Positions 8,641 through 29,251 of a DNA stretch of 64,000 nucleotides are shown piece after piece (positions within the stretch are counted from its first letter, which is position 1; every line of letters begins with the position of its first letter). Under the pieces are notes generated by a model. The model ran no database searches, was not told the DNA's origin, and worked only from the letters and a program-made list of their open reading frames with translations. The stretch is from the NCBI RefSeq assembly GCF_004354985.1, contig NZ_SMSK01000020.1:1-64000 (forward strand). Reading direction: 5' to 3'. Position numbers and translations under genes: made by a program. The DNA is from Segetibacter sp. 3557_3. Its GTDB lineage: Bacteria; Bacteroidota; Bacteroidia; Chitinophagales; Chitinophagaceae.

Positions 8641-8706
8641 CCAAAATCGGAGAAGAGGTAGTTAATTAAAAGCACTAAGCCAGGGTACCGATCTACAATC
8701 AAGAGT

Positions 8707-8838
8707 CGATGTCGTTTACTTAAGGTGAGTGGCAGAAATTGGTGAATAAAGTGATGCGGTACAAGGGAGTGACACAACGATGGCAAATAGAATTTCCACA
8801 GCTGGTCACCAAAGATTTCTCTTAAGTAAACGACATTG
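8707..8838 (+). mobile_element. MITE-like repeat, copy 2 (complete, 132 bp)
   Basis: Complete element with ends CGATGTCGTTTACTTAAG and, inverted, CAATGTCGTTTACTTAAG. It is flanked by a perfect 10-bp direct repeat AATCAAGAGT at 8697-8706 and 8839-8848, which is a target-site duplication. The core GTACAAGGGAGTGACAC is followed directly by AACGATGGCAAATAG, so there is no GC insert. It has no coding capacity, so it would need a transposase in trans. Confidence 0.85.
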
Positions 8839-8936
8839 AATCAAGAGTTACAACTGGTCCTGTTTGTCCTGGTCTATAAATTTTGATACGAGAAAAAAAC
8901 GGTTTGGCTTTAAGACCCAAACCGTTTATGAATAGC

Positions 8937-9440
8937 TTATACATTAAGTGAGCCTTCAATACCATCATCCATTGTTTTACCCACCACTACCGAAGTCAGC
9001 ATTTTTGCGAATGCGACCATTTTGCCGTGTTTGGTGTCCCAATAGTAGGCATCCTGGGGAGTAACCTTTATCAGGCTTAAGTTTGGATCATCTTTACCTT
9101 CCTGGAACCATGTTTTAATTAACGGGGTCCACAATTCTTCTATTTTAGCACGATCGGTTGTAATCTCCGCTTTACCATGAACCGCCAGGTAGTTTTCTTT
9201 GCTTGAATTGGCATACAACAATTCAACTTTGTCGTTCTGAGCAATCTCCCGGTTTTTATGGCTGTCTTTACCACTAAAGAACCAGAATGAGCCGTCGTCT
9301 TCAATCTTCTGCGTTGACATCGGGCGTGACCGCAACGCAAATTCACCAGTAAAAGTTCCAAACAAACATGTTTCTTCTGTTGCAAGCTCCTGGAGCTTTT
9401 CAATGGCATCCAGGCTGCTTAAATGTTTAACATCTCCCAT
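8937..9440 (-). CDS. General stress protein 26-like, PNP-oxidase-fold flavin-binding protein
   Basis: A 167-residue protein of the pyridoxamine-5'-phosphate-oxidase-like split barrel family, the group that includes general stress protein 26. Typical segments are FGTFTGEFALRSRPMS, GSFWFFSGKDSHKNREI, VELLYANSSKENYLAVHG and the C-terminal YYWDTKHGKMVAFAKML. Members bind FMN or FAD and are induced in stress; a specific reaction is rarely known. The ATG at 9440 (MGDVKHLSSLD) gives the usual length; the longer frame to 9539 adds 33 residues with no likeness to the family. It is flanked on both sides by MITE-like repeats. Confidence 0.85.
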   Translation of the reverse strand: MGDVKHLSSLDAIEKLQELATEETCLFGTFTGEFALRSRPMSTQKIEDDGSFWFFSGKDSHKNREIAQNDKVELLYANSSKENYLAVHGKAEITTDRAKIEELWTPLIKTWFQEGKDDPNLSLIKVTPQDAYYWDTKHGKMVAFAKMLTSVVVGKTMDDGIEGSLNV

Positions 9441-9703
9441 AACGCGTTTTTTGAAAAACAGCTTTAATTCGCATACCACTATTAATGGCTTGTCGTATTG
9501 TAGATCCTGTCGTATGCTCTGGTTTGATCCTTTAAACAAGGTTAAACAGATTAGCTCTTCTGAGGATTCTTTTGCTCAGATTATCGGGCTTAGCATTGGT
9601 ACCGACGGTATGCAGCGCCGGTAACTGCCTGGTTGTTTCTGTTATTCAGGAATGAATCATCCGGTTAAAAGAATTAACGCGCCGGACTTTTTCCTTTATA
9701 ATT

Positions 9704-9920
9704 CAATCTCGTTTACTTAAGGTGAGTGGCAAAAATTGGTGAATAAAGGGATGCGGTACAAGGGAGTGACACCCCCGTCCGAACCGGTTCATCCGGGCGG
9801 GCGGGCGAACGGCCAGCCCGAAAGAATTCATTCTGGCGGGAGTTCATCCGGGCGGACAACGATGGAGATTAGTATTCCTTAAGCTGGTCACCAAAGATTT
9901 CTCTTTACTAAACGACATTG
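9704..9920 (+). mobile_element. MITE-like repeat, copy 3 (complete, 217 bp, with 85-bp GC insert)
   Basis: Begins CAATCTCGTTTACTTAAG and ends CTTTACTAAACGACATTG. The flanks CTTTATAATT (9694-9703) and TTTTATAATT (9921-9930) match at nine of ten bases, a target-site duplication. Outside an 85-bp GC-rich insert at 9773-9857 it matches copy 2 closely. The insert holds palindromic blocks centred on ACCGGT and GAATTC. The element ends 16 bp before the start codon of the TspO-like gene. No gene lies in the 9441-9936 space. Confidence 0.85.
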
Positions 9921-9936
9921 TTTTATAATTGTTCTT

Positions 9937-10758
9937 ATGAAAAATCTTATGCAGCAGAGAAGACTGGTAATTGCAAGTGTATTTGCTTACCTCGTGATGG
10001 TTGTTGCAAATACCCTTGCCAATACGCTCCCCATAAATGGGAAAACTACGGGAGATGTATCAGCCTTATATCCCAACTACTTCACGCCCGCCGGAATTAC
10101 TTTTTCCATCTGGGGATTGATTTATCTTACACTACTTGGATTTATTGTTTACGTGCTGGTGCATGAATTTGCGCGGGCACGGCGTGTGCCCATGCTCGTG
10201 TTGACCATATTACCCTACTTTATTTTAAACTGCCTGCTAAATGCTACCTGGATATTCGTGTGGCACTACCTGCTTATTGAACTCTCGCTGGTAATTATCA
10301 TTCTCCTGCTGTTTACCCTGATTGTCATTCACAATAAGCTCCGGCTTCCGCGCCCATGGAAACCAGTTGGAGGGTTGCTTTTCGTTGACCTTCCATTCAG
10401 CCTCTACCTGGGTTGGATAACCATTGCAACAATAGCGAATATGGCAGCACTGCTCACCGCATACAACTGGAACGGCGGACCGTTTACCGCGCCCACCTGG
10501 ACCCAGATCATGATTGCTGCCGGAACACTCATCACCTTATTACTGCTGGCAAGCCGGGGCAATATCTTTTTTTCACTTGTACCTATCTGGGCATTTTACG
10601 GCATTATCGTAAAGCAACAAGCAGTGAATGATACCGGCAGTGCTGCTATTATTCGTAGCGCACAAATGTGTATTGCCATAATCGTGATCATGATTGTTAT
10701 AACCATTGTTCGGCAACTTCGGAGAAAAAGCGTCGGCATTGATAAAGCCTACGCCTGA
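9937..10758 (+). CDS. TspO/MBR-related multi-helix membrane protein
   Basis: A 273-residue membrane protein with about seven or eight hydrophobic helices. The N-terminal part, with NTLPINGKTTGDVSALYPNY and PAGITFSIWGLIY, matches the tryptophan-rich sensory protein (TspO) superfamily; TspO proteins bind porphyrins or cholesterol-like ligands. It is much longer than classical TspO (about 160 residues), as is common for Bacteroidota members. The start at 9937 follows the end of a MITE-like element by 16 bp, so that element probably supplies the 5' untranslated region. A second ATG four codons on (9949) is also possible. The role cannot be set from sequence. Confidence 0.7.
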   Translation: MKNLMQQRRLVIASVFAYLVMVVANTLANTLPINGKTTGDVSALYPNYFTPAGITFSIWGLIYLTLLGFIVYVLVHEFARARRVPMLVLTILPYFILNCLLNATWIFVWHYLLIELSLVIIILLLFTLIVIHNKLRLPRPWKPVGGLLFVDLPFSLYLGWITIATIANMAALLTAYNWNGGPFTAPTWTQIMIAAGTLITLLLLASRGNIFFSLVPIWAFYGIIVKQQAVNDTGSAAIIRSAQMCIAIIVIMIVITIVRQLRRKSVGIDKAYA

Positions 10759-10849
10759 TTAATGTTGCGTGCAGCTGTTACTCCAGATCCATCCCGGTTA
10801 AAGTCGTTCCAAACACTATGGTACTTACTACCTTTTTAAAAGATTAACC

Positions 10850-12154
10850 ATGAAAGTTATAGTTATCGGCGCTGGCGCAGCCGGTTTAATGGCTGCGAAA
10901 GAACTTGCAGTAAATGGCGCTGAGGTAATGGTTTTAGAAGCGCGGGATCGAATAGGCGGAAGGGTTCAAACTTTCGAACACAATGGCATTGTGTGTGAAG
11001 GTGGGGCAGAGTTTATTCACGGCAATCTTGACGTTACAATTAAAGCGTTAGACGAGGCAAACATCGGCTATACTGAAATGGACGGCGAGTTCTGGCAGGT
11101 TGAAGAGGGCCAGTGGAGCTCGGGGCAACAATCCTTTGAGCACGAAGACCTGCTGATGGAAAAGCTAAAGGCGTTAAAAGATAATATTTCTATTGCCCGG
11201 TTCCTGCAACAAGAATTTGCCGGATCCCAATTCAGTGATTTACGCGCATCCTTATTATCGTATATCGAAGGCTATTATGCAGGCCATGCCGAAAGGATGA
11301 GTGCCATGGCTTTTTACGTTGAGTGGATGAACGAAGATGAGCAGCAGTACCGGGTTGAAGGTGGTTATAAAAAATTAATGGCTGCGCTTTGCAGGCAAAT
11401 CGAGGCCAACAGAGGATCTTTAAAATTGGATACGCCTGTAAAACTTATTCAATGGTCAACAAACCAGGTGTCTGTAACCGACGTTTCCGGAGCAGTTTAC
11501 AACGCTGACAAATGTGTAATCACCATTCCACTTGGGGTTTGGAGAGCCGGGGAGGATGAGCCGGGGGCAATCATGTTTTCCCCTGAACTTCCCGCTAAAA
11601 GAGCCGCCGCACTTAAGGCCGGATTTGGATCGGCCATAAAGGTGCTGCTATATTTTAAAGAAGCGTTTTGGAAAGACGAACAACTACTCCTGAAACTTAA
11701 CAGGAATATTTCGAACGCAAGCTTTGTATTTTCAGGTCAGCCTGTTCCAACCTGGTGGACGCAGTTACCCAAACAAGTGGCCATGCTCACCGGTTGGCTT
11801 GCCGGGCCAAAGGCTGATGCGTACAAACAGGCACCAGATGAAGCAATTCTTGAAGCTGCGCTTGTTTCGTTGCAGTCCATCTTTCAGCTACCAGGCGATG
11901 AACTGCAAAGACTGCTCGAACACTCGGAGGTTTTTAATTGGCCCGCAGATCCTTTTACACGGGGAGGTTATGCCTATTCTACTGTTGACACCAGCGAAGC
12001 CAGAAAAGTTTTGATGGCACCGGAAAACGAAACCCTATATTTTGCGGGCGATGGTTTTTACGATGGTCCAGAGATGGGAACGGTTGAATCCGCTTTACAC
12101 AGCGGCCTCGATGCTGCCAGGCACCTTTTAAGCTTACATCCAAATGGGGAATAA
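10850..12154 (+). CDS. Flavin-containing amine oxidase family oxidoreductase
   Basis: A 434-residue FAD enzyme of the monoamine oxidase/polyamine oxidase type. The dinucleotide fold is at the N-terminus (GAGAAGLMAAKELA, residues 7-20), followed by VLEARDRIGGRVQTF, the GG-R motif that holds the FAD. The substrate domain runs through the middle, and the C-terminal FAD segment is LYFAGDGFYDGPEMGTVESA. There is no signal peptide, so it should act in the cytoplasm. An oxidised amine or a carotenoid-like substrate is possible. It is on its own; the next gene downstream encodes an acidic protein 77 bp away. The start ATG sits directly before the first beta strand, as expected for the family. Confidence 0.85.
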   Translation: MKVIVIGAGAAGLMAAKELAVNGAEVMVLEARDRIGGRVQTFEHNGIVCEGGAEFIHGNLDVTIKALDEANIGYTEMDGEFWQVEEGQWSSGQQSFEHEDLLMEKLKALKDNISIARFLQQEFAGSQFSDLRASLLSYIEGYYAGHAERMSAMAFYVEWMNEDEQQYRVEGGYKKLMAALCRQIEANRGSLKLDTPVKLIQWSTNQVSVTDVSGAVYNADKCVITIPLGVWRAGEDEPGAIMFSPELPAKRAAALKAGFGSAIKVLLYFKEAFWKDEQLLLKLNRNISNASFVFSGQPVPTWWTQLPKQVAMLTGWLAGPKADAYKQAPDEAILEAALVSLQSIFQLPGDELQRLLEHSEVFNWPADPFTRGGYAYSTVDTSEARKVLMAPENETLYFAGDGFYDGPEMGTVESALHSGLDAARHLLSLHPNGE

Positions 12155-12231
12155 GGGTCGATAGCATTTTCAAACACATAAATCTCATAAACCATTCGGC
12201 ACAACTTTTTCATTCATTTTAAAAAACGATT

Positions 12232-12822
12232 ATGAACGCAGAAAGGGAGCAATCCACCAACAATAGCGGCGGCCGGCCGCTGGACCCATTAAACAAGAAC
12301 TTATCCGACGGAGGCGATTTGCAGGACTCCCCCCATGACCTGGAAAGAATGCAATCGGAAGAGATCATCATGGACCTTCCGGAAGTCAAAGACATTCCCG
12401 GCCAGGAACATGTGGTGCCCCCGGTATTTGGCGAGTTTTCCGACACTACGATCTCCTCAGATGATGAAGAGGGTGTTTCCGTTTTTGGCGATGAAGACGA
12501 TGAAGAAACTGATACCGATTTCATCATGGGTACTGATGCCGATACTACCCCTGAGGAGCGAAAAGTGCTTGAAACCGCAGATCTCGATATGCAAACCGAT
12601 GATGATACCAACTTGAGAAGGGCGGAACTTGATGATACCGACATGGAAGGCGATCCATTAAATGAGACTGCTTTATCGTCGAACCAATCCGGGTCTGACC
12701 TTGATACCTCCGGAGTTGATGCAGACGATGCAATGGAAGCAATTGGCGAAGAAGATGAAGAAAATAACCTGTATAGTTTGGGAAGTGCCGACAACGATCC
12801 TGTAACTGAAGGAACACCTTAG
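12232..12822 (+). CDS. Highly acidic hypothetical protein
   Basis: A 196-residue protein with very high Asp/Glu content, including SSDDEEG and EDDEETDTD, and few hydrophobic stretches. The C-terminal part (DLDTSGVD, then EEDEENNLYSLGS) resembles a conserved tail I associate with Bacteroidota hypothetical proteins; this is from memory. It is probably largely disordered. It ends 18 bp before a strong bidirectional terminator shared with the convergent DUF3072 gene. It has no signal peptide and no known function. The antisense strand also has a long open frame, but that is a Ser-rich shadow of the acidic codons. Confidence 0.7.
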   Translation: MNAEREQSTNNSGGRPLDPLNKNLSDGGDLQDSPHDLERMQSEEIIMDLPEVKDIPGQEHVVPPVFGEFSDTTISSDDEEGVSVFGDEDDEETDTDFIMGTDADTTPEERKVLETADLDMQTDDDTNLRRAELDDTDMEGDPLNETALSSNQSGSDLDTSGVDADDAMEAIGEEDEENNLYSLGSADNDPVTEGTP

Positions 12823-12838
12823 CCGTAACCGGCAAAAC

Positions 12839-12872
12839 GTAAAAGGCCCGGCTAAACCGGGCCTTTTAGTTA
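12839..12872. terminator. Bidirectional intrinsic terminator
   Basis: AAAAGGCCCGG, a 5-base loop and CCGGGCCTTTT form an 11-bp stem with T-runs on both strands. It sits between two convergent genes, so it can end both transcripts. Confidence 0.9.
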
Positions 12873-12884
12873 CAAGGGCAAGAT

Positions 12885-13166
12885 TTATTTGTTATCGTCT
12901 ATACCCCGTCCTGTTTTTTGTTGCAATTCGTTGATCTTTTTCGAAGCTTCAGCCTTGGTGAGGTTTTCATCTAGTTCCTCACCCGCTTCATCCGACAACG
13001 TTTTTAAATAAGAGCGCTGCGCACCAGTCATTGACTCGTCGCCCGTTGTCCAATCATCCGGATCTTTAACGGTATTAGAGCCGGGTATGTTTTGGTCCTG
13101 GTTTGATGAACTTTTGTTTTCTGCCGAATTTCCTTTGTTGTTCGCATCATTGTTTTTCGTATCCAT
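12885..13166 (-). CDS. DUF3072 domain protein
   Basis: A 93-residue soluble protein. Residues 1-35 are an Asn/Asp/Lys-rich, probably disordered tail. The rest matches DUF3072: TTGDESMTGAQRSYLKTL, then DEAGEELDENLTKAEASK and INELQQKTGRG. The family is small, uncharacterised and often near stress genes. It is convergent with the acidic-protein gene, with a shared terminator between. Confidence 0.82.
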   Translation of the reverse strand: MDTKNNDANNKGNSAENKSSSNQDQNIPGSNTVKDPDDWTTGDESMTGAQRSYLKTLSDEAGEELDENLTKAEASKKINELQQKTGRGIDDNK

Positions 13167-13289
13167 ACAAGCTTTTCGTTAACCCATGCAAAAAATGAAC
13201 CATGGAAAACACGCAACTAAGCGTATTTCGCCCTGATCATCCGCCCATTAAATCGCAGGTCGGCCAATCATAACTACTTTTGCGCCCCG

Positions 13290-14624
13290 ATGAAAAAAGA
13301 ATTTCTAAAAACACTTGTAATTGCAATTCCGCTCATCATCAGCAATGTTTCACAGATAGCATTGGGATTGATCGATAGTGCAATGATCGGGGCAATAGAT
13401 TACCGCCAACTTGCTGCCTCAGCACTGGCGATTAACATGCTTGCAATACCACAGATTCTTTGTATCGGGATGACGATGGCAATTTCACCCCTGGTCGCGA
13501 TTGCAAACGGCAAACAGGATCATGGGGCCGCCTCAAGGGTCTTATACAACGGTGTTTGGCTTTGTACGATTATCACCGCCATTATTGTAGCAGCCGTATT
13601 GCTTTCTAAAAACCTGATGACAAAATTGGGGCAGGATACTGAGGTTGTTCGACTTGCCCTTCCCTACTACCAGGTGATGGCATGTTCGCTAATTCCTATG
13701 ATCATATTTACGGCAATCAAACAATTTTGCGACGCTCTGGAATTTACAAAAACAGCCATGGTCCTCGCCCTCCTGTCACTGCCACTTAATGCATTGCTCA
13801 ACTGGATCTTTATATATGGTCACCTCGGCCTGCCCAGGCTGGAACTTGTTGGTACCGGCATCGCAACATTGATCACCCGCTTGATTATGGCCGTAACCCT
13901 GGCTGTTATCGTGTACCGGCATAAGCTATTCCAGCCCTATATACAACAACGTTATTATGCCTGGAAAATCGATGGGAGGAGCTGGAAGGAGCTTTTACAA
14001 ATTGGCATTCCCAGCAGCATTCAATACGGCTTGGAGTCAGGTGCTTTTGCGGTATCAGGCATTATGATTGGCTGGCTGGGGGCTACAACCCAGGCAGCAC
14101 ACCAAATAGCGCTTAACCTCGCATCTACAACTTTTATGGCCGCACTCGGGCTTTCGCTTGCAGGTTCGATACGCGTGAGCAATGCGTATGGCAGGAACGA
14201 CCTCACCGAATTAAAGATCATTGGCAAAAGCACCATCCTTGGGAGTCTTGTTTATGGATCGGTTTGCGCACTGCTATTTGTCCTGTTCCAGGATTATCTT
14301 CCTTATCTGTTTACCAGTAATCCCGAGGTGGTATCATTAGCAGCCGGCCTGATGGTGCTTGGTGCTTTGTTTCAAATATCCGACGCTACGCAGGCGATCG
14401 GGGTGGGCCTGCTCAGGGGAGTAAGAGACGTGAAATTGCCGACCGCCTTTGTGGCCATTGCCTATTGGGCAATCGGGTTACCGGCTGGCTATTACCTTGC
14501 TTTTCATATGGGCATGGGCGCTTCCGGCATTTGGATCGGGTTCATTGCCGGCCTGACTACCTCTTCGATATTATTGAACCTTAGGTTTATCCGAAAATCT
14601 CATATCCCGGTAGCGGTCGCTTAA
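13290..14624 (+). CDS. MATE family multidrug efflux transporter (NorM type)
   Basis: A 444-residue inner membrane transporter with 12 predicted helices in two repeated halves, the MATE arrangement. It exports cationic drugs or metabolites against a Na+ or H+ gradient. The first half opens with IPLIISNVSQIALGLIDSAMIG, and the second half has IGIPSSIQYGLESGAFAVSG, matching the paired helix-1/helix-7 pattern of the family. Length is normal. It stands as a single gene, divergent from the DUF3072 gene, with a small-heat-shock gene 218 bp downstream. The substrate cannot be predicted. Confidence 0.92.
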   Translation: MKKEFLKTLVIAIPLIISNVSQIALGLIDSAMIGAIDYRQLAASALAINMLAIPQILCIGMTMAISPLVAIANGKQDHGAASRVLYNGVWLCTIITAIIVAAVLLSKNLMTKLGQDTEVVRLALPYYQVMACSLIPMIIFTAIKQFCDALEFTKTAMVLALLSLPLNALLNWIFIYGHLGLPRLELVGTGIATLITRLIMAVTLAVIVYRHKLFQPYIQQRYYAWKIDGRSWKELLQIGIPSSIQYGLESGAFAVSGIMIGWLGATTQAAHQIALNLASTTFMAALGLSLAGSIRVSNAYGRNDLTELKIIGKSTILGSLVYGSVCALLFVLFQDYLPYLFTSNPEVVSLAAGLMVLGALFQISDATQAIGVGLLRGVRDVKLPTAFVAIAYWAIGLPAGYYLAFHMGMGASGIWIGFIAGLTTSSILLNLRFIRKSHIPVAVA

Positions 14625-14830
14625 ACGCTTCCTAAGGTCGCCGCATACGGCCGAACGCTCAGCCCCGCGCAAGCAAAACTGAAAAAATTTCTTTTTTACT
14701 TAAATTTTGACAGTTACACTATCCATCAGCACTGCAAAAATTGCAAGTTTTTCCTTTTGGTATTCTAGTTGATTTATACCTCATGTATCTGTTATTATTC
14801 TTCTAACCAAACCAACAAAAACCTAAACTA

Positions 14831-14838
14831 AAAGGAGG
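14831..14838 (+). promoter_or_regulatory. Strong Shine-Dalgarno site of the Hsp20 gene
   Basis: AAAGGAGG lies four bases before the ATG at 14843. A near-perfect anti-SD match is uncommon in this window, where most starts have no clear site, and fixes this start over the internal ATG three codons later. Confidence 0.8.
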
Positions 14839-14842
14839 AACT

Positions 14843-15295
14843 ATGACACTTATGAAAAAAAATGGCAATCTTCAAAACCAATTGCCAGGACTATTTAACG
14901 ACTTTTTCACCAACAACTTCTTTGACTGGGGACTTTCTAATAGTTCATCAACCGGCACCAGCATTCCAATGGTGAATATCAAAGAAACCAATGACCAATA
15001 TGAAGTGGAAGTTGCCGCTCCAGGTATGAGTAAAGAAGACTTTAAGGTTGAGTTGAATAATGATATGCTTACAATCTCTTCGGAAAAGACCCATGAAAAT
15101 GAGCAAAGGGAAGAAGAAAAATTCTCTCGCCGCGAATTTAGCTACCAATCATTCCGAAGAAGTTTTCAACTCTCAAGGGAGTCTGTTGATGCTGACAACA
15201 TTCAGGCAAAATATGAAAATGGTGTGCTACGTTTGTTGATACCTAAACGTGAAGAAGTAAAACAAAAACCATCACGCCTGATTAACATCTCTTAA
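14843..15295 (+). CDS. Hsp20/alpha-crystallin family small heat shock protein
   Basis: A 150-residue holdase chaperone that binds unfolding proteins in the cytoplasm. The alpha-crystallin domain spans about residues 35-135: IPMVNIKETNDQYEVEVAAP, GMSKEDFKVELNNDMLTI, and the conserved end NGVLRLLIPKRE. The C-terminal tail SRLINIS supplies the IxI-like motif used in oligomer assembly. The N-terminus (PGLFNDFFTNNFFDWG) is the usual variable, hydrophobic arm. The 200-bp AT-rich leader, strong SD and strong terminator fit a highly expressed, induced gene. No CIRCE element is visible. Confidence 0.95.
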   Translation: MTLMKKNGNLQNQLPGLFNDFFTNNFFDWGLSNSSSTGTSIPMVNIKETNDQYEVEVAAPGMSKEDFKVELNNDMLTISSEKTHENEQREEEKFSRREFSYQSFRRSFQLSRESVDADNIQAKYENGVLRLLIPKREEVKQKPSRLINIS

Positions 15296-15312
15296 TAACT
15301 TTTGTGATTATT

Positions 15313-15345
15313 TAAAGGCTGCCCTTTGGGGCAGCCTTTTTATTT
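15313..15345 (+). terminator. Intrinsic terminator of the Hsp20 gene
   Basis: AAGGCTGCC, a short loop and GGCAGCCTT make a 9-bp stem, followed by TTTTATTT. It starts 18 bp after the stop. Confidence 0.9.
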
Positions 15346-15350
15346 GCGGG

Positions 15351-15755
15351 TCAACGTTCCAACTTGGCGTCCATCACGGAAACTGACACGCTATCTGTAC
15401 CCTTAGGCGTTGTATAACGTACCGTAAAGTCGATGGTACTATTGGGCCCGAGGGTTTTCCCAACAACCTCTTCGTGATTTTCAACAACCTGGCCCTGCCG
15501 AAAAAATAGGAACTTCAACCTGACGTCATTATACGAGGTTACAGAAGCAGCATTGGAAATGCTCGTACGCACGACAGTTTTGCCCAACAGGTTTCTTTTG
15601 TTTGATGCAATTACCTTGATAAAACGTAATGCGTTTTCGCGTTCATTCTTCTTAACACGTTCTTTACTTGCTTCATAATCTTTTTCCGGCGAACCTGAAA
15701 TGTTGCAGGAAAGCATAATTAAAAACAAGAGGGGTAAAGGGTTGAGCCTTTTCAT
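15351..15755 (-). CDS. Hypothetical lipoprotein
   Basis: A 134-residue protein with a lipoprotein signal (PLPLLFLIMLSC, Cys near residue 17). The mature part begins with a charged helical stretch (KDYEASKERVKKNERENAL), then a beta-rich domain ending in VSVSVMDAKLER. The second half resembles small immunoglobulin-like or FxLYD-type domains in pattern, but I name no family. It is probably anchored to the cell envelope. It is convergent with the Hsp20 gene, and another lipoprotein gene lies upstream on the same strand 73 bp away. Confidence 0.6.
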   Translation of the reverse strand: MKRLNPLPLLFLIMLSCNISGSPEKDYEASKERVKKNERENALRFIKVIASNKRNLLGKTVVRTSISNAASVTSYNDVRLKFLFFRQGQVVENHEEVVGKTLGPNSTIDFTVRYTTPKGTDSVSVSVMDAKLER

Positions 15756-15828
15756 GGTTACAAAAATTAGTGAGCTGAAACAAAAACTGCCCCGGTGGGA
15801 GCAGCTTTAAGTTAGTAAGATTCCGGGC

Positions 15829-17569: not shown

Positions 17570-17645
17570 GCGCCCTTCCAGTAGAATTGGCTAACAGTTT
17601 TCAACTTTTACGCTTACCTTCACCCATTAATTATTTTAATTTTTA

Positions 17646-17852: not shown

Positions 17853-17874
17853 CTTTTAGTTAAAAACTCATTTA

Positions 17875-17901: not shown

Positions 17902-17949
17902 ATGCCCTTTTTTTGGAGCTGATCAGTTTGCCCGCTAGCATCATTGGTC

Positions 17950-18035
17950 CTGCTTTCCGCTTATAGCCCACCCCAAAACCCAAATACAGGGGTGGGGCTA
18001 TCCGCTCCAATCAGGGCTATTTTCCGGCCGGCTGA
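17950..18035. repeat. Palindromic intergenic repeat
   Basis: ATAGCCCACCCC (17964-17975) pairs with GGGGTGGGGCTAT (17990-18002) with a single bulged base, giving a stable hairpin. It is framed by CTGCTTTCCGCT and CCGCTCCAATCAGGGCTA. These flanks recall a palindromic repeat seen in many Bacteroidota genomes; that is from memory. The rest of 17902-18320 shows no gene. Confidence 0.55.
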
Positions 18036-18509: not shown

Positions 18510-18581
18510 ACAAGCGTAAAAAGTTTTGCATTCCGGTTCCGCCATTTTCATGAAAGCCAAATAATCCAAACTGTTTAATTT

Positions 18582-20365: not shown

Positions 20366-20390
20366 GAAGCAGCTTTATTAAATATAAAAA

Positions 20391-21326: not shown

Positions 21327-22297
21327 TGAGAAAAGCTGATATGGTTCGTCTCACAGTGGTTGCCTTGTTCTTGTTTTTTGTGGTGGATATCCCGGCTCAA
21401 AAGGTAGAATACCCCTACCCCGTTCAGCAATTCCAACTTACGCTGGAAGGTCGGCCTGTTCAGATGGCATATATGGACATTGCTCCTTCAAAGCCAAACG
21501 GCCAGAGTATCTTGTTATTACATGGAAAAAACTTTAATGGATATTACTGGCGCACGGTTATCCCCTTTCTTGCTGAGGCCGGGTACCGAGTGATTGTTCC
21601 CGACCAGGTAGGATGGGGCCGTTCTTCAAAACCCAATTTGCACTATAGTTTTCATATGCTCGCTAACAATACCCGCCTTTTACTCGATAGCATAGGCGTG
21701 AAGAATTGTACGGTGGTGGGACATTCAATGGGTGGAATGCTGGCTACACGCTTTAGCCTGATGTTTCCTTCGATGGTTAAGCAACTGGTACTCGAAAATC
21801 CGATTGGACTCGAAGATTATAAAACCTTTGTGCCCTATAAAACCATTTCCGAGTCGTATGCTGGTGAAAAATCAGCATCTTATGAATCTTATAAAAAATA
21901 CCAGCAATCGTATTACCCGCAATGGAAGCCGGAATATGAGCAATATGTGCAGGCACAGGCTGAAGCGCTTGGCACGCCGGAGTTTGATAGCGCGGCATGG
22001 GTAAACGCATTAACCTATCAAATGATTTACGAACAGCCGGTGGCTTATGAATTCAGGAGACTGAAGCTGCCCGTGCTACTTATAATGGGCCAGGAGGACC
22101 GCACGGTCGTAGGAAAAAACCTTCTTTCGGAGCAAGAGAAAAAAGTAAGGGGCAATTACCCGAAATTGGGTAAACAATTGAAAGCTCAAATACCTGCGGC
22201 TAAACTTATAGAAATACCCGGTGTCGGACATATACCTCATATACAAACACCGGATATTTTCATGCAACACCTGTTCACATTCCTTAACAGGCCGTAG
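21326..22297 (+). CDS. Secreted alpha/beta hydrolase
   Basis: A 323-residue alpha/beta hydrolase. A signal peptide is at residues 7-25 (VALFLFFVVDIPAQ), so it acts in the periplasm or outside. The nucleophile elbow is GHSMGGM (Ser near 133), the acid is in MGQEDRTVVG and the His in PGVGHIPH, a full triad. The oxyanion region is LLLHGKNFNGYYW. It may be an esterase, haloperoxidase-like or lipase; the coupling to the lipid-kinase gene favours a lipid or acyl ester. It ends one base before the convergent gene's stop. Confidence 0.85.
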   Translation: MRKADMVRLTVVALFLFFVVDIPAQKVEYPYPVQQFQLTLEGRPVQMAYMDIAPSKPNGQSILLLHGKNFNGYYWRTVIPFLAEAGYRVIVPDQVGWGRSSKPNLHYSFHMLANNTRLLLDSIGVKNCTVVGHSMGGMLATRFSLMFPSMVKQLVLENPIGLEDYKTFVPYKTISESYAGEKSASYESYKKYQQSYYPQWKPEYEQYVQAQAEALGTPEFDSAAWVNALTYQMIYEQPVAYEFRRLKLPVLLIMGQEDRTVVGKNLLSEQEKKVRGNYPKLGKQLKAQIPAAKLIEIPGVGHIPHIQTPDIFMQHLFTFLNRP

Positions 22298-22897
22298 CTA
22301 TTTTTTATAGTGTATGGTATCGTCGGTAGGGTTGAATGCTTTTTTCTGATTTGTTCCATCCGAAAACAAACGCTCTATAGCATGCATAGCATCCGACATG
22401 GGACCTTCCATCTTATGTGTACGGTCGTCAATGGTATTGTCGTGTAATGCGTCACCAATATGCAAGGCCCCAGGAATGTATTTCTTTAGGTTAGCAATCT
22501 GAGAATTAAAGAAACTTTTAACCGACTTTCCATCAGTTCCTTTCAGGTTTTCACGCAATACTGCATGGGATGCATGGGTAACCTTATCCATTTCATGTCC
22601 GGCTTCTTCAACGCTCTTGTGGCTGTACGCCGCAACCCGCTCCACCACCGATGTATAATCGTCTTTGAATAAGTCTTTTGCTCCCGATGAGGAAGAATTT
22701 TCACGCAACAAATTAGCTGCTTGTTGCTCGTTGGTTGAAGCTTTATACATTTCTATCAGTACAGTAGGAATGGCAGCCTGGGCCAGCAAGTCAACTGGTT
22801 TATCGTCTTTAATGATCTCCTGGGTATTTGGATCAATTTTATGTAACGCCGGACACCCGAGTTTTGCCTGAACGGCTTCAACAAGATTGATTGACAT
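22298..22897 (-). CDS. Hypothetical helical protein
   Basis: A 199-residue soluble, mostly helical protein. It has no signal peptide or membrane helix. Segments such as KLGCPALHKIDPNTQEI and YIPGALHIGDALHDNTIDDRTHKM give no family I can name; the layout somewhat recalls DUF937-type proteins but I do not assert it. The stop lies directly next to the stop of the convergent hydrolase gene, leaving no intergenic space. Confidence 0.6.
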   Translation of the reverse strand: MSINLVEAVQAKLGCPALHKIDPNTQEIIKDDKPVDLLAQAAIPTVLIEMYKASTNEQQAANLLRENSSSSGAKDLFKDDYTSVVERVAAYSHKSVEEAGHEMDKVTHASHAVLRENLKGTDGKSVKSFFNSQIANLKKYIPGALHIGDALHDNTIDDRTHKMEGPMSDAMHAIERLFSDGTNQKKAFNPTDDTIHYKK

Positions 22898-23075
22898 AAT
22901 ATGATGTTTTAGAGAGTTATAGTGATTTGGATGGCATTCTAAAGTTAAAAATTATACCATGTTCGTAAACAATTATCAGGTCGGCGACCAACTAAGTCAA
23001 GTGAAACTCAATTGTTCCTGCGAATATTCTAATTCTAAAATCTGGTGTTCCAGGTACCTAATTGTATAACTTAGT

Positions 23076-23834
23076 TTGATGAGCCTGATCCTTGTTCTTT
23101 CGAAACTTTTTACTTTTTTTTTGGCGCCCGTGTACTGGATTGCCGGCCTGATCATCTTACGGTATTTCACCATAAGCAGGATCTTAAAAAAACGGCTCCT
23201 GACAACTGCCATCTTGCTTTTCCTGGTATTCAGCAATGAATTCCTGTTTAGCAAAGTTGTTCAGCAATGGCAACCCGTACGACCACCTGAAATGAACAAC
23301 ACTTTTCAGGTGGGAATTGTTCTTGGTGGCTTCACAAGTTTTGACAGGCTAGGAAAAGGATACTTCAATACTGCGGCTGATCGCTTTATTCAAGCAAATA
23401 AACTGTATCAACAAGGCGTGATTAAGAAAATTATTGTCAGTGGGGGCAGTCTCTGGGGAAATGAACCTTCCGAAGCAGCCTTTGTTCGCAATGAACTGAT
23501 TGCCTCCGGCGTTAATCCAAATGATGTTTTGCAGGAACTGCGGTCAAGAAATACATATGAAAACGCACTTTTCTCAAAGCGGATAATGGATTCTCTTCAG
23601 CTTCCTGCGCCGGCTTTGCTGATCACATCCGCCCTGCACATGAAACGGGCAAGTCAGCTGTTTAAGTCAGCCGGGATTGCGATACAACCCTTTCCCTGTG
23701 ACTACCGGGTACTCGACAGAAAGTTCCAGGCTGACGACTATCTTCTGCCTAAGCTCGACATACTCGATAAATGGGCTTATTTAAATAAAGAGGTAGTTGG
23801 GCTTATTATCTACCAAATTGCCGGAAAAGCTTAA
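23076..23834 (+). CDS. YdcF/ElyC family membrane-anchored protein (DUF218)
   Basis: A 252-residue protein with two N-terminal membrane helices (about residues 5-30 and 40-55) and a DUF218 domain outside. Conserved DUF218 pieces: GIVLGGFTSFDR, KKIIVSGGSLWG, LRSRNTYENALFSK and ITSALHMKRASQLF. The E. coli relatives ElyC and SanA act in envelope biogenesis; a phosphatase or nucleotide-binding role is only proposed. A second ATG (23079) follows directly. It is alone, facing a thioesterase gene. Confidence 0.85.
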   Translation: MMSLILVLSKLFTFFLAPVYWIAGLIILRYFTISRILKKRLLTTAILLFLVFSNEFLFSKVVQQWQPVRPPEMNNTFQVGIVLGGFTSFDRLGKGYFNTAADRFIQANKLYQQGVIKKIIVSGGSLWGNEPSEAAFVRNELIASGVNPNDVLQELRSRNTYENALFSKRIMDSLQLPAPALLITSALHMKRASQLFKSAGIAIQPFPCDYRVLDRKFQADDYLLPKLDILDKWAYLNKEVVGLIIYQIAGKA

Positions 23835-23901
23835 TAGAATTTATTGGTAGCCGATGGGCGGTTGTACTTGTTCGGGCGCTGCACCGCCTACAATTGACCA
23901 C

Positions 23902-24339
23902 CTAATCCGACCACGCGAAATTTGCTGCCCGGGGTATCTGTGCAAAAGAGTCGATCGCTTCGGCCGGAAGTCCTGTAAGCTTTCGTTTCACAACATCGAT
24001 CCATGCGCCATCAATCGTGATGATAGCTGCCAGAACATCATCGTTTTTCCATATCTCGTGCTGCATCGTCCAACGACTGCTGTCGCGCCGCGAACTGAGC
24101 AGGGTCATATTGATCCAAACCTTGTCGCCAAACGTAAGTTCCCGTTTAAACACACATTCCTCCCTGAAAAGCACGGGACCAATCTGGTACGAAAGCAGCT
24201 GTTGTTGCCCTAAACCATGCTCAGCCAGGTAACTGATCCGGCAAAATGCCCCGAAATCGTAAAAGGCGCTGTGTCTCACATGACCATTCATGTCAATATC
24301 ACTCCAGCGTATATCGATCGGCTTTTGAAAAGTTTGCAT
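23902..24339 (-). CDS. Acyl-CoA thioesterase, hotdog fold (YbgC/4HBT family)
   Basis: A 145-residue single-hotdog enzyme that hydrolyses acyl-CoA thioesters in the cytoplasm. The active-site region is IRWSDIDMNGHVRHSAFYDF, with the catalytic Asp in the SDIDMNGHV motif, followed by KRELTFGDKVWINM and RWTMQHEIW. Length and layout are standard. It is convergent with the ydcF-like gene. Acyl specificity is unknown. Confidence 0.85.
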   Translation of the reverse strand: MQTFQKPIDIRWSDIDMNGHVRHSAFYDFGAFCRISYLAEHGLGQQQLLSYQIGPVLFREECVFKRELTFGDKVWINMTLLSSRRDSSRWTMQHEIWKNDDVLAAIITIDGAWIDVVKRKLTGLPAEAIDSFAQIPRAANFAWSD

Positions 24340-24596
24340 ACTCCAGGTAGTTATTTTAGTTATACTATACGTAGATGTAGCACAAGTTGCAGCTAAATGT
24401 GAACTATACCTGCCCGTTTAGTCTTAACACTTTACAGGTGGTCCAGTATAGCGACCCTCTGTTTTTGGTGAGTCCTATTCATTCGGTTGCCGGTAGACAT
24501 GTCTTCAAATGTTCTCTCTTTGTTCACGCAAGAAATGCCGTTGTGATCAGGTAATCTTTCAACTGTAACCTTATCTTGCACGCCTAAATATATCAT

Positions 24597-25031
24597 ATGT
24601 CTATTTCAGATAAGCTATCTCAACTAAAAAATGACAAGGCAGCTGCAAACCTTCAGGCAGGCCAGGATTTTTTAAGCGAAAACAAGAAGAAAGAAGGTGT
24701 TGTTGAACTGGCAAGCGGTTTACAATACCAGGTGCTCACCGAGGGTACAGGTAGTAAACCTTCAGCCACCGATAAAGTAAAGTGCCACTACCATGGAACA
24801 CTGATCGATGGCACCGTATTCGACAGTTCAGTTCAGCGTGGGGTAGCAGCAAGCTTTCCGTTAAACATGGTTATTAAAGGTTGGACCGAAGCTTTGCAGT
24901 TAATGTCTGTCGGCAGTAAATGGCGCTTGTTTATTCCGCCGTCATTAGGTTATGGCGATCGCCAGGTTAGTGCGCAGATTGGTCCAAATAGCACGCTTAT
25001 TTTCGACGTGGAGCTTCTCGGAATTCAATAG
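24597..25031 (+). CDS. FKBP-type peptidyl-prolyl cis-trans isomerase
   Basis: A 144-residue proline isomerase that assists protein folding. A short helical N-terminus (residues 1-35) precedes a complete FKBP domain: DKVKCHYHGTLIDGTVFDSS, FPLNMVIKGWTEALQ, and PPSLGYGDR with the closing STLIFDVELLGIQ. It has no signal, so it is probably cytoplasmic. Its last 35 bp overlap the 3' end of the convergent MFS gene. Confidence 0.93.
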   Translation: MSISDKLSQLKNDKAAANLQAGQDFLSENKKKEGVVELASGLQYQVLTEGTGSKPSATDKVKCHYHGTLIDGTVFDSSVQRGVAASFPLNMVIKGWTEALQLMSVGSKWRLFIPPSLGYGDRQVSAQIGPNSTLIFDVELLGIQ

Positions 25032-26226
25032 CCGAATACCTGGCCAGTACAATAAAACCAACACTTGCCAGTAGTGAAACACCCAGGATGATCCACCAGA
25101 GTACATCAAAACCAAGGTGATCCGCAACCCATCCACCAATGGATGGTGCCGCAATTTGCGCACTGGCCCAACCCATACTGTATAGTGCCGCATATTCCCC
25201 ACGGTTATGATCATAACTCCGGCTGATCCAAAAGGTATTCATGAATGGCATCGATAACATTTCACCCACCGTTATAATAAGTATGGAGATGATGGCAAGC
25301 AAAAACCCGCCCGTAAGCAGGTTGAAGATGCCGAAGGAAATGCCCACAAGCACAACCCCATATTTAATGTAATATAATGGTGGGTGTTTACCGTCGAGAC
25401 TGTGTACCAGTACCATCTCAGTTAACGCAATGATGATTCCGTTTAGGGCCATAAGAAACCCGATATGCCTTTCGGTAAGCCGAAGAGATTGGCGGTAGTA
25501 AACTGGTAAGATGGTAAACAATTGAAAGAAACAAAAGGCAAAGAGAACGGTCAGGCAAATGAAACCCAGGTAAATCTTGTCCCGGTAAGCTGATGTACCA
25601 GCCCTGTCCGGCTTTGCTTCTCCCGATAATGTCTTAACCGTTTTTGCTGGTACCGGCAACACAAAAAATAAGATGATCGCAGCCGAGATATTTGTAATCC
25701 CATCTACCCAAAACAGCAATTGGTAATCCATCTCTGCAAGTAACCCACCGACTGCCCCGCCCACGGCCCATCCCAGGTTAATGGCCAGGCGATTCAAAGA
25801 ATACGATCGTGTTCGGTTTTCGGGTATACTATAGTGTGCAATCGCCGTGGAGTTTGCTGGCCTGAACGATTCATTTACCATGCTTAGCAAAAACGTTCCA
25901 ATGCAAATACCCGTATAGCTACGCAGGTGACCAAGAACGATAAACAATACCCCTCCAACAAGAAGGGCAAACAACTGGATCTTGTAGAAACCAATTTTGT
26001 CGGTGAGCCTTCCCCCGAGATAGGTTCCTACAATGGCTCCTACCCCAAATATACCCATGATGATGCCAGCCTGGGCAATTGAAAAGCCAAGCTGCTGGGT
26101 GGCATACATCGTCATAAATGGGACCACCATGGTGCCGCTCCGATTGATGAGCATCACCGCAGACAAGTACCAGGTTTTGCGTGATAACCCGGTATAAGCG
26201 TCTCTATAAAGCGTTAAAAGCGACAT
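24997..26226 (-). CDS. MFS transporter
   Basis: A 409-residue inner membrane transporter with 12 predicted helices. The loop after helix 2 has the MFS signature (GGRLTDKIGF). The rest is typical of drug/proton antiporters of the DHA1 group, but no substrate can be named. The coding end overlaps the FKBP gene. A long imperfect hairpin lies four bases before the start codon. It is the last of three same-strand genes beginning with the ABC-F gene at 28807. Confidence 0.88.
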   Translation of the reverse strand: MSLLTLYRDAYTGLSRKTWYLSAVMLINRSGTMVVPFMTMYATQQLGFSIAQAGIIMGIFGVGAIVGTYLGGRLTDKIGFYKIQLFALLVGGVLFIVLGHLRSYTGICIGTFLLSMVNESFRPANSTAIAHYSIPENRTRSYSLNRLAINLGWAVGGAVGGLLAEMDYQLLFWVDGITNISAAIILFFVLPVPAKTVKTLSGEAKPDRAGTSAYRDKIYLGFICLTVLFAFCFFQLFTILPVYYRQSLRLTERHIGFLMALNGIIIALTEMVLVHSLDGKHPPLYYIKYGVVLVGISFGIFNLLTGGFLLAIISILIITVGEMLSMPFMNTFWISRSYDHNRGEYAALYSMGWASAQIAAPSIGGWVADHLGFDVLWWIILGVSLLASVGFIVLARYSAIEFREAPRRK

Positions 26227-26230
26227 AATG

Positions 26231-26290
26231 GTGGCAAACCGCTGCAGCTTGCTCCGCCTGCACGATTACTGTGCTGCAGACACCTGCCAC
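26231..26290. promoter_or_regulatory. Inverted repeat next to the MFS start codon
   Basis: GTGGCA (26231-26236) pairs with TGCCAC (26285-26290), and inside it CTGCAGC (26242-26248) pairs with GCTGCAG (26273-26279). In the MFS messenger this would lie just before the start codon and could mask it. There is no T-run, so it is not an ordinary terminator. Confidence 0.5.
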
Positions 26291-26308
26291 TTTGGAAGTG
26301 CTGGCAAT

Positions 26309-26830
26309 TTAGCTGGACGTGCCTTCAAACTGATCGAACTGGTGTTTGAATAAAACATTGAAAGTAGTGAGGCTGCCATAGATACGGGTGATGTATTGCT
26401 GAAGATCTACTTTTTCAGCATCGCTCAACAACTTGTGTGCATTGATCTTTTGCTCCATTACCCTCAGCCTGTCCCGAAGCATGACGATCTTATGAAAAAA
26501 GCCTTCTATCGGCACTTCTTTCGACGACAGTTTTTTATCGCCGGGCTGCAACACCATCATCCCATTTTTCCAGCGATCGCCAATAGACACCACTTCGGAA
26601 ACATCACTCCATTCGCGAAGAATTTTGATGAGTGCATCTTCTGCTTCGCTGAAACTCACGTTATATTCCGGCTCAATACGATCAATTACTTCGAGCTGAA
26701 AGTCTTTTGCTACGGTTTTTATGCCCTGGTCGATAAAGCAAACCTCATAAACACGTTTGTGCAGGCGGATGACCACACCTGTTCCGAATGACGGATGATT
26801 AACCCTTGATCCAACTCCGAGGAGTTCCAT
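26309..26830 (-). CDS. Hypothetical protein with PcrA/UvrD-tail-like N-terminal domain
   Basis: A 173-residue soluble protein. Residues 5-45 (GSRVNHPSFGTGVVIRL, VYEVCFIDQGIKTV) show the tudor-like fold seen at the C-termini of UvrD/PcrA helicases, which bind RNA polymerase or nucleic acid. The rest is helical, ending in a coiled region. I know no function. It starts 51 bp after the ABC-F gene on the same strand, suggesting a common transcript. Confidence 0.65.
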   Translation of the reverse strand: MELLGVGSRVNHPSFGTGVVIRLHKRVYEVCFIDQGIKTVAKDFQLEVIDRIEPEYNVSFSEAEDALIKILREWSDVSEVVSIGDRWKNGMMVLQPGDKKLSSKEVPIEGFFHKIVMLRDRLRVMEQKINAHKLLSDAEKVDLQQYITRIYGSLTTFNVLFKHQFDQFEGTSS

Positions 26831-26881
26831 GCGTATTGTTTTTGGGTGTTCAGGTAATAGAATATGTTGAACCGTTTAGGC

Positions 26882-28807
26882 TTACATCAGCTCGCTTAAT
26901 TCGAGCCAACGCATTTCCTTTTGTGCGAGCGCATTGTCGATTTCCCCTATTCGTTTGCTTAAAAGGTTCAACTGTTCAAAAGGTGCTTCCGGGTTGCTCA
27001 GGTTTTGCTCCACTTGTTGCTTCTCCGCTTCGAGTTCTGCAATTTCTTTTTCCAACATCTCAAACTCCCGCTTTTCCTTAAAATTCGCCTTTTTTAAAGT
27101 TGTAGCAGCTGCAGCTACCAGCGGCTTATTTTGTTCCATACCGGCAACAGCTTCGGTTGTTTCGCCTTTGTTCTTTTTGTCCGTGAGGGCATCCCATTTA
27201 TTTGCTTTTTTCTCGTTTGTCTTAATCCATTCGCGGTAGAGCGTATAGTTTCCCGGAAAGTCCCTGATTTCGCCGTCTCCTTCAAATACAAACAGGTGAT
27301 CAACCAACCGGTCCATAAAGTAACGGTCGTGACTAACAATTAGCAAACAGCCCTGGAAGTCAACCAGGAAATTTTCGAGTACCCCGAGTGTGGGCAGGTC
27401 AAGATCGTTCGTCGGTTCATCGAGAATAAGAAAGTTCGGGTTCCTGAAAAGGATTACCAATAACTGAAGGCGTTTTTTTTCACCGCCGCTCAAGGAGCTC
27501 AGGTAAGTATATTGCTTGTCGCCGGGAAATAAAAACAATTCAAGAAACTGGGAGGCACTTATACTGCCTCCTTTTGCAAGTGGAAAGCTTTCGGCAAAGG
27601 TTTTTACATATTCAATGATCCGCATGTCGTCTTTAAACTCAAGACCCTGCTGCGAGAAGTTACCAAAAATGACCGTTTCCCCAATGTTGATTTTACCGCT
27701 GTCGGGTTTTTCAATGCCTTGCAGAATATTTAAAAACGTTGACTTACCTACCCCGTTTTTACCAATTACGCCTATTCTTTCGCCCTTACTAAAAGTATAA
27801 TCAAAGCCTCGCATTATGGTTTTATCCCCATAAGCTTTGTTAACTTTTTTAAACTCAGCAATCTTGCCACCAAGCCGGCTCATCTTAACGTTCAATTGTA
27901 GTTGCGCGTCTTCGATTTTCTTCTTGGCAATCACTTCTACCTCGTAAAAGTTATCCTGCCGGCTTTTGCTTTTGGTAGTACGTGCCTTAGGTTGCTTGCG
28001 CATCCACTCCAACTCTTTGCGATAGGTGTTTTTCGCTTTATCGATCGTACTTAGCTCACTTTCGATGCGTGCCGTCTTTTTCTCGAGGTAATTGGCATAG
28101 TCGCCTTTATAACTGTGTATTTCCGAACGGTCCATCTCCCAGATCTCGTCGCAAACTGCATCCAGAAAATAACGGTCGTGGGTAACCATCAGCAAGGTTA
28201 CGTGCTCGCCGTTTAGATAGTGCTCCAGCCATTCCACCATTTCTACGTCGAGGTGGTTGGTTGGTTCATCCATTATCAACAAGGTGTGCTGGTGCTCAAA
28301 ACCGATGTCGATCAGTGTCTGCGCCAGTGCCACCCTTTTACGTTGTCCGCCGCTCAGGTTATTAACCGGCTGTTGCAGGTTATGAATGTTTAATTTGGTC
28401 AGGATCTCTTTTACTTTGGCCTCAAACGTCCAGGCATCCAACTCATCCATTGTTGAAAGCGCATCAGAGATTGCATGCCCGTCATCTGCTTCAACCGCGG
28501 CTTCGTACTCGCGGATCACCTTCAACACCGGGTTTTCGGTATGGAAGATATTGTCGAGTATTGTTTTATTCTCGTCGAACTTCGGATCCTGTTCAAATAA
28601 GGCGACGGTTACGTCTTTATTGATCCAAACGGTGCCTTCGTCTGCGGTCTCCTGTCCGCTAAGAATACGGAGCAGGGTACTTTTTCCAACACCATTTCTT
28701 GCAACAAGCGCAATCTTATCTCCTTCGTTTATGTGAAATGAAATATTGTTAAATAATGGATTAATCCCGAAACTCTTGGTGAGTCCCTCAACAGTTACAT
28801 AATGCAT
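26882..28807 (-). CDS. ABC-F family ribosome-associated ATPase (Uup-like)
   Basis: A 641-residue soluble protein with two ABC domains and no membrane part. Domain 1 has Walker A ARNGVGKST, signature LSGGQRKRVALA and Walker B LLIMDEPTNHLD; domain 2 has GKNGVGKST, LSGGEKKRLQLL and FLILDEPTNDLD. Between them is the P-site tRNA-interaction linker (Arg/Lys-rich, KARTTKSKSRQ). A C-terminal coiled coil (about 565-641) resembles Uup. ABC-F proteins act on the ribosome in translation control or antibiotic protection; the Uup type favours a housekeeping role. An AATCCGC-type repeat lies just upstream. Confidence 0.92.
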   Translation of the reverse strand: MHYVTVEGLTKSFGINPLFNNISFHINEGDKIALVARNGVGKSTLLRILSGQETADEGTVWINKDVTVALFEQDPKFDENKTILDNIFHTENPVLKVIREYEAAVEADDGHAISDALSTMDELDAWTFEAKVKEILTKLNIHNLQQPVNNLSGGQRKRVALAQTLIDIGFEHQHTLLIMDEPTNHLDVEMVEWLEHYLNGEHVTLLMVTHDRYFLDAVCDEIWEMDRSEIHSYKGDYANYLEKKTARIESELSTIDKAKNTYRKELEWMRKQPKARTTKSKSRQDNFYEVEVIAKKKIEDAQLQLNVKMSRLGGKIAEFKKVNKAYGDKTIMRGFDYTFSKGERIGVIGKNGVGKSTFLNILQGIEKPDSGKINIGETVIFGNFSQQGLEFKDDMRIIEYVKTFAESFPLAKGGSISASQFLELFLFPGDKQYTYLSSLSGGEKKRLQLLVILFRNPNFLILDEPTNDLDLPTLGVLENFLVDFQGCLLIVSHDRYFMDRLVDHLFVFEGDGEIRDFPGNYTLYREWIKTNEKKANKWDALTDKKNKGETTEAVAGMEQNKPLVAAAATTLKKANFKEKREFEMLEKEIAELEAEKQQVEQNLSNPEAPFEQLNLLSKRIGEIDNALAQKEMRWLELSELM

Positions 28808-28825
28808 GCGGCAAAGATAAGGCTG

Positions 28826-28935
28826 AAGACTACGGATTAGCGGATTACGGATTGGCGAATTTGGGGAATGGTTCAGGAGAATACTTGATCAGTGAATAGG
28901 TTGACTGGTGAATTCCCGAATTGCGGATTAGGGAC
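28826..28935. repeat. Degenerate AATCCGC-type array upstream of ABC-F
   Basis: In reverse orientation to the array at 1050 it reads ACTACGGATTAGCGGATTAC, GGATTGGCGAATT and further on GAATTGCGGATTAGG. It occupies part of the 689-bp gene-free space 28808-29496, which also holds three MITE-like copies. Confidence 0.65.
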
Positions 28936-28995
28936 TAACGAAAGAACAGTTTAGTCCAGGGAAAAAGTCGAACAGTTGAATGCTGATTTATTAAC

Positions 28996-29128
28996 CAATG
29001 TCGCTTATTTAAGCAACTTTTTTGGACCCAACTACAGGATTGCTATTGAACATCGTTGCGTCGCACTCTTGTACAGCCTCGCATTATTGAGCTAAACAAT
29101 TGACAAGCAGCTTAACTAAACGGCATTG
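28996..29128 (-). mobile_element. MITE-like repeat, copy 4 (complete, 133 bp)
   Basis: Ends CAATGTCGCTTATTTAAG and CTTAACTAAACGGCATTG are inverted copies of each other at most positions. The flanks carry a perfect direct repeat ATTTATTAAC (28986-28995 and 29129-29138), extendable to 12 bp if the adjacent TG is counted. Read on the minus strand the core is GTACAAGAGTGCGACGC followed by AACGATGTTCAATAG; there is no GC insert. Confidence 0.87.
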
Positions 29129-29251
29129 ATTTATTAACTGCTAAATACCAGACACTATACATGTTTGCTGCACTACGAATAATGCTTTGCAGGTATTTAT
29201 TTTTACAATTTGCATATTACATTTTACACAGGCATTTAGGGCCGAATGTAG

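Follow-up and report, generated by a model that had tools for sequence, protein, structure and literature searches.

Miniature inverted-repeat elements with IS4-like ends and an independent intergenic core repeat in Segetibacter sp. 3557_3

A 64,000-nucleotide stretch of Segetibacter sp. 3557_3 (contig NZ_SMSK01000020.1, positions 1 to 64,000; hereafter the window) carries three short repeats with 18-bp inverted ends, which we followed through the genome of this bacterium (G000, 6.75 Mb in 35 contigs) and its relatives. These copies are very probably miniature inverted-repeat transposable elements (MITEs) bounded by the ends of an IS4-family, IS4-subgroup insertion sequence (IS); they would be mobilized in trans with duplication of a 10-bp AT-rich target, and their usual content in G000 would be a repeat of the host clade, here called the core. 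The elements have the properties of MITEs: they are short, have inverted ends and no transposase gene, and are flanked by a target duplication of fixed length (10 bp); a parental IS with the same ends is present in related genomes, though not in G000. The MITE family is new and belongs to the already known IS4-subgroup type of MITE; most of the elements examined contain the core, which is apparently undescribed.

Elements, target duplications and empty sites

The MITE end sequence, CAATGTCGTTTAGTTAAG, was matched seven times in the window at three or fewer mismatches, against 0.05 expected. The three complete copies of the original prediction were verified, with their inverted ends and with flanking duplications that agree at 10/10, 9/10, and 10/10 positions (Table 1). 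Seven more full or partial copies had also been listed. One of these, at 47503, is retained as an element with one recognizable end (two mismatches), but the best end matches of the other six are at chance level (6-9 mismatches forward and 7-9 reverse); when 500 segments of 240 bp were drawn at random from the window, 492 had a best forward match of 6-9 mismatches. These six sites are copies of the internal repeat and not MITE copies; counting interior-only repeats as MITEs was wrong, since their ends are at chance level and the core is independent of the ends in a relative of the same genus (G009). Inspection by eye would allow the site at 62651 to be read as a decayed element, a reading that the mismatch count does not support.

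The search of the whole genome and of relatives that had been proposed yielded 77 + 73 end matches in G000 at two or fewer mismatches (reversed control, 0), and an end at one mismatch or fewer in 12 of 58 relatives besides G000. Pairing gave 74 raw end pairs, 68 of them no longer than 245 bp, and 65 were left once end-sharing pairs had been removed. This set is not random, as loci were recruited via similarity to copy 1, via the end pattern, or as core loci. The 65 non-redundant elements span 113-239 bp; their longest closed open reading frame (ORF) is 66 aa, and an ORF of at least 40 aa occurs in 10 of them. A 10-bp duplication is exact in 21/65, reaches at least 9/10 in 37/65, and at least 8/10 in 45/65. 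At the other lengths from 7 to 13, none of the 65 has an exact duplication, and a duplication one base short was seen in one element at length 7 and in one at length 9. Mispaired flanks reached 9/10 in a mean of 0.43 and a maximum of four cases. The 37 targets with duplications of at least 9/10 are 77% AT and have a roughly symmetric consensus, A-W-T-N-A-T-N-A-W-T.

We then joined the flanks of the 45 elements with duplications of at least 8/10 at the duplication and compared them with the fetched loci. Twelve of the 45 joined flanks match across the join, some of the matches overlapping the element's own flank. Of five joins that were aligned, four (L067, L006, L074, and L004) continue into an adjacent unit of the tandem repeat, in which the element is absent and the target occurs once; the empty unit of L004 agrees at 9/10 target bases, the duplication of L004 itself being just 8/10. 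The joined-flank comparison also revealed a young copy inside an older element in L216. The original claim that the 10-bp duplications are evidence of transposition is thus borne out by the 37 elements and the empty tandem-repeat units; empty sites were obtained for these four insertions, but not across species.

Same-ended insertion sequences and the transposase type

The route to the parental IS led from matches to PF01609 to a transposase of G034, P0001, and from there to a search of family and named genomes with P0001. This IS4-type transposase is encoded near a perfect end (L141), and the other end was not found. The P0001 search gave matches in 14 of 147 family genomes and at four loci in the named genome collection, one of which is the G034 record. 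Four ISs bounded by the MITE ends were recovered (Table 1). A single end was seen at L187, many contigs of G012 start or stop inside a same-ended IS, and G004, which belongs to the same genus, retains a decayed 1275-bp IS whose ends have three and two mismatches; G004 is the sole genome with an A1 match among ten genomes of the genus. The weak P0001 matches (L167-L174 and L177; 23-26% identity, E 1e-6 to 1e-3) have no such end at four or fewer mismatches.

All five transposase queries match the IS4-family model NF033592 of NCBIfam at E under 1e-27; P0001, L164, and the L162 piece score over its cut-off, and the L187 and L165 pieces below it. PF01609 is over its cut-off in four of the five, with L164 just below. 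Counted by hand, P0001 has D74, D151, and E261, together with Y254, R257, E261, and K268, which fits the IS4 spacings D(60-110)D(100-150)E and Y(2)R(3)E(6)K; the YREK signature is readable in L164 too. The original prediction had suggested an IS4-like or ISAs1-like transposase acting in trans. The IS4-like option is upheld by the same-ended ISs and the empty sites, but the ISAs1-like option is not: searched against NCBIfam and Pfam at E ≤0.001, the five queries hit no ISAs1 model. A profile search of the transposases against the PDB gave no match at E ≤1. Viral contigs contained one exact end-pattern match, with no partner end in the fetched stretch, and no core matches.

In De Palmenaer et al. 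(2008; PMC2266710), the IS4 subgroup is characterized by ends of the form -AATR--------WTW----, duplications of 10-13 bp, and ISs of 1400-1650 bp. Read by eye, the MITE ends fit this pattern, the 10-bp duplication lies within the range, and the parent ISs are of similar size (1387-1449 bp) and carry the YREK and DDE motifs. The window elements differ in their length of 132-217 bp and in having no transposase; subgroup membership belongs to the parent ISs, and we infer that it extends to the MITE ends. The IS231 subgroup, according to the same paper, is alike in its duplications of 10-12 bp and its TAA-type inner end, but its ends are CAT and those of the MITE are CAAT, so the MITE ends are not of the IS231 kind.

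Several observations weigh against the assignment of these elements to an IS4-type transposase acting in trans. A duplication of at least 9/10 is absent from 28 of the 65 elements, including all six that lack the core, and strict criteria applied to an unbiased 800-kb stretch of G000 gave just eight elements, five of them with such a duplication (reversed-end control in the same stretch, 0). The empty units are imperfect in L067 (9/10 target bases with a 1-base gap), in L006 (a 5-base length difference beside the target), and in L074 (7/10 target bases), and L054 gave no clean alignment. No cross-species empty site was obtained from 800 kb each of G000 and G009; among their 19 conserved gene pairs, one has a core in G009, and none is decisive. 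As for the ISs, both ends and an intact frame are combined solely in L164, the frames of L162, L165, and L186 being broken. A clean duplication is found solely at L165, whose ends diverge most; there is none at L162 and L186, and L164 stops at its contig end. In G000, neither P0001 nor A1 has a match, and PF01609 gives just one weak fragment; the MITEs of this genome may therefore be stranded, or the assembly may lack the helper.

Taken together, the duplications, the empty sites, the same-ended IS4-family ISs, and the fit of the ends to the IS4-subgroup consensus uphold the trans-acting IS4-type reading. In the proposed mechanism, an IS4-family transposase would bind the 18-bp ends in trans and move the unit, duplicating a 10-bp AT-rich target of about AWTNATNAWT. 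Since nothing evident is common to the units and the ISs beyond the ends, the ends are apparently what the transposase requires, and different lineages enclose different sequence between the same ends. Along with mobilization in trans, we infer a single capture of the core and the loss of the helper from G000.

The core repeat and its origin

The core reads GTACAAGNGNGNGACNCAACGATG and is followed by a looser GGxxCCAAAAA tail. Clustering at 78% identity placed the 39 elements of 125-136 bp into eleven subfamilies. Common to all are the ends and a single internal motif, GTACAAG.G.G.GAC.CAACGATG, followed by AATAG and GG..CC..AA; the remaining positions vary between subfamilies. Among the 65 elements this motif is whole in 40, split by an insert in 19, and missing in six, and none of these six has a 9/10 duplication. 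The GC-rich inserts are placed at or near the GAC loop of the core. In the window, GC-rich palindrome-like modules (CCGTCCGAAC..GTTCATCCGGGCGG type) are nested in the core, single or doubled, at about 8541-8598, 9773-9856, and 47571-47600, and are possibly a further small repeat family.

Across one set of 117 instances, positions 12 and 16 of the core always read C-G (88) or T-A (29). Among the 95 unbiased cores of G009 they are C-G or T-A in 90, T-G in one, and unpaired in four, and position 10 is partly independent. Such covariation would be expected of a short stem enclosing GAC, or of a binding site that is symmetric, and it might also result from a few founding events. A conserved larger fold was not established from the folding of single sequences.

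The core is an independent intergenic repeat and not part of the MITE as such. Apart from G000, 17 of 58 relatives contain it at three or fewer mismatches to its first allele, and the two-allele pattern occurs in 26 of 298 genomes of an order sample (G000 included), all in the window's own family. Two relatives rich in cores (G001 with 417 and G009 with 202) have no end match at one mismatch or fewer; conversely, G012, G016, and G035 have the ends and not the core. In 800 kb of G009 we counted 95 cores and no end-bounded element, and 93 of these cores are intergenic, although a simple ORF call assigns about 88% of that sequence to coding regions. Of the 43 unsplit cores counted over 800 kb of G000, six are located inside end-bounded elements. 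The fetched loci outside G000 gave 17 end-bounded pairs. The core is present in three, all of which belong to G008 and one of which is an over-long pairing, and in none of the 14 from nine other genomes. Since a duplication of at least 9/10 is found in 5 of these 14, the remainder may include chance pairs.

Two other explanations were weighed. If the elements were internal-deletion derivatives of one parental IS, as in a classical MITE, the core would be leftover IS sequence, and the ends common to MITEs and ISs would follow. This is highly improbable, as the core is present in genomes without these ends, and the motif GTGCGACGCAA is missing from all four ISs checked, a comparison of exact strings that would overlook the second core allele. 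Alternatively, free cores could be old MITEs whose ends have decayed while the core was kept by selection. The half-decayed element at 47503 is of this kind, and the free cores of G000 have an excess of ends at seven or fewer mismatches, both on the right (3/18 versus 0.5 in the control) and on the left (3/18 versus 0.75). No such excess was seen in the G009 stretch, where end matches number one versus two in the control, or among 69 instances from other genomes at the same threshold (right, 4 versus 2.75; left, 2 versus 2.0), and on balance we regard decay as an unlikely source of the free cores.

We also considered whether the core is a repetitive extragenic palindromic (REP)-type repeat spread by a Y1 transposase of the REP-associated tyrosine transposase (RAYT) type, with the IS4 ends as a later shell. 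In keeping with this, the core is multicopy and intergenic and at times forms divergent inverted pairs about 50-230 bp apart (L292 of G033; G013 contig 1), and Y1_Tnp genes are present in 10 of 12 genomes. In G001, which by one pattern has the most cores among the relatives, a frame that we take to be RAYT from its sequence type (L318) is flanked by two exact cores, inverted and outward-facing, one on each side at distances of 147 and 232 bp, and over 21 Y1 loci, 9 of 10 core sites point outward from the gene. On the other hand, a core lies in the fetched stretch at just 7 of these 21 loci, a share near the background of 0.22 (G000) to 0.34 (G009) measured on random pieces of 3.3 kb only. Cores on both sides are found at two of the 21, L318 and, weakly and more than 1 kb away, L317; of the RAYT-like places that tblastn detected in the fetched sequence, L318 alone has a core within 1.2 kb; and G033 has 57 cores and no Y1_Tnp match. 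The Y1/RAYT link to the core is thus suggestive and not shown, and this origin with a later IS4 shell is quite unlikely.

Two apparent biases of the core were set aside. Co-direction with upstream genes (30/45 in a non-random set) was dropped because it was not seen in the unbiased G009 stretch (39/93), and a strand bias along contigs, which had seemed possible, fails in contigs G009 C1 and G000 C11, where strands are mixed. Rfam scans of the window and of 20 loci yielded nothing for the core; at E ≤5 the 20 loci gave four weak matches, none recurring between core loci, with coordinates not matched singly to cores. A text search of the literature with core strings found no description of the core, and 12-mer matches in two unrelated papers only. 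Independence from the ends being observed, we give about even chances to a fuller account, in which the core, as a hitherto undescribed intergenic repeat of the whole clade, either spreads by a route of its own (possibly through a transposase of the Y1/RAYT type) or serves a function of its own, has two main alleles that co-vary at positions 12/16 and GC-rich modules at or near the GAC loop, and was taken up as cargo by IS4-type ends.

Comparable systems and further features

Mobile cassettes exist in the IS231 subgroup of IS4. Outside that family, BrickBuilt of Porphyromonas gingivalis (PMC4596501) is described as an intergenic MITE-like shell that has trapped a repeat, much as seen here; BrickBuilt differs in its IS5-type ends, its 23-nt direct repeat content, and its duplications of varying length. 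MITECca01 of Cardinium (PMC9769881) is likewise an element of about 240 bp tied to a parental IS through its ends, but the parent is of the IS982 family, and some sequence beyond the end is common to both.

Table 1. Elements, repeats, and related loci. Positions refer to the window unless a locus is named.
Feature	Position	Strand	Details
MITE copy 1	8707..8838	+	132 bp; ends CGATGTCGTTTACTTAAG / CTTAAGTAAACGACATTG
Target duplication, left of copy 1	8697..8706		AATCAAGAGT; 10/10
Target duplication, right of copy 1	8839..8848		AATCAAGAGT; 10/10
Core repeat within copy 1	8759..8782	+	GTACAAGGGAGTGACACAACGATG; read from sequence
MITE copy 2	9704..9920	+	217 bp; GC-rich insert splits core
Target duplication, left of copy 2	9694..9703		CTTTATAATT; 9/10
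Target duplication, right of copy 2	9921..9930		TTTTATAATT; 9/10
GC-rich insert of copy 2	9773..9856		between GTACAAGGGAGTGACAC and CAACGATG; read from sequence
MITE copy 3	28996..29128	-	133 bp; core on minus strand
Target duplication, left of copy 3	28986..28995		ATTTATTAAC; 10/10
Target duplication, right of copy 3	29129..29138		ATTTATTAAC; 10/10
Core repeat within copy 3	29051..29074	-	GTACAAGAGTGCGACGCAACGATG
Interior repeat without MITE ends	8520..8636 (approximate)	+	split core and GC-rich insert
Core repeat without MITE ends	29266..29282	+	
Interior-like repeat without MITE ends	29385..29440 (approximate)	-	found by eye
Core repeat without MITE ends	44611..44627	-	
Decayed MITE	47503..47670 (right bound approximate)	+	left end kept (2 mismatches); right end unrecognizable (best 7)
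Core repeat split by insert	62653..62790	+	best ends 6 and 8 mismatches, chance level
Interior-repeat fragment without ends	62869..62901	-	
Same-ended IS	L162 (G083)		1399 bp; both ends, 0 mismatches to degenerate end; frame broken by stop
Same-ended IS	L164 (G110)		1449 bp; both ends, one mismatch each; intact frame
Same-ended IS	L186		1449 bp; ends 2 and 1 mismatches; frame broken
Same-ended IS	L165 (G134)		1387 bp; ends 4 and 5 mismatches; frame broken; exact 10-bp duplication GGGAGACCTG
Presumed RAYT-type Y1 transposase frame	L318 (G001) 1091-2119		flanked by two outward-facing exact cores

Other repeats were observed along the way. Tandem arrays in the window consist of 8-bp units (ATCAACCA-type; 933-1045) and of units of about 72 bp (1041-1256), and elsewhere in G000 other intergenic tandem repeats host MITE insertions. 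A repeat of the form ACGAGATCCCTCGTGC..GATGACA, at 44682-44709 and 44893-44920, resembles by eye the GGGATCT..CGGGATGACA content of end-bounded elements in G018. The sole Rfam match in the window is to the Flavo-1 small RNA (17942-18022, minus strand; 50.9 bits, gathering 42). A different IS in G004 (L117, G004:C211, 1104-2656) has a 450-aa DDE frame between long inverted ends that include CATAGCCGTCAACTTAAG, and looks IS231-like by eye, from its CAT...TTAAG form.

With these results, a MITE family present in many copies is connected to one definite type of transposase. Across related lineages a single set of ends surrounds sequences unrelated to each other, so that it becomes testable what the ends by themselves permit, and an abundant intergenic repeat, with 95 copies in 800 kb of one relative, is now separated from the MITE.

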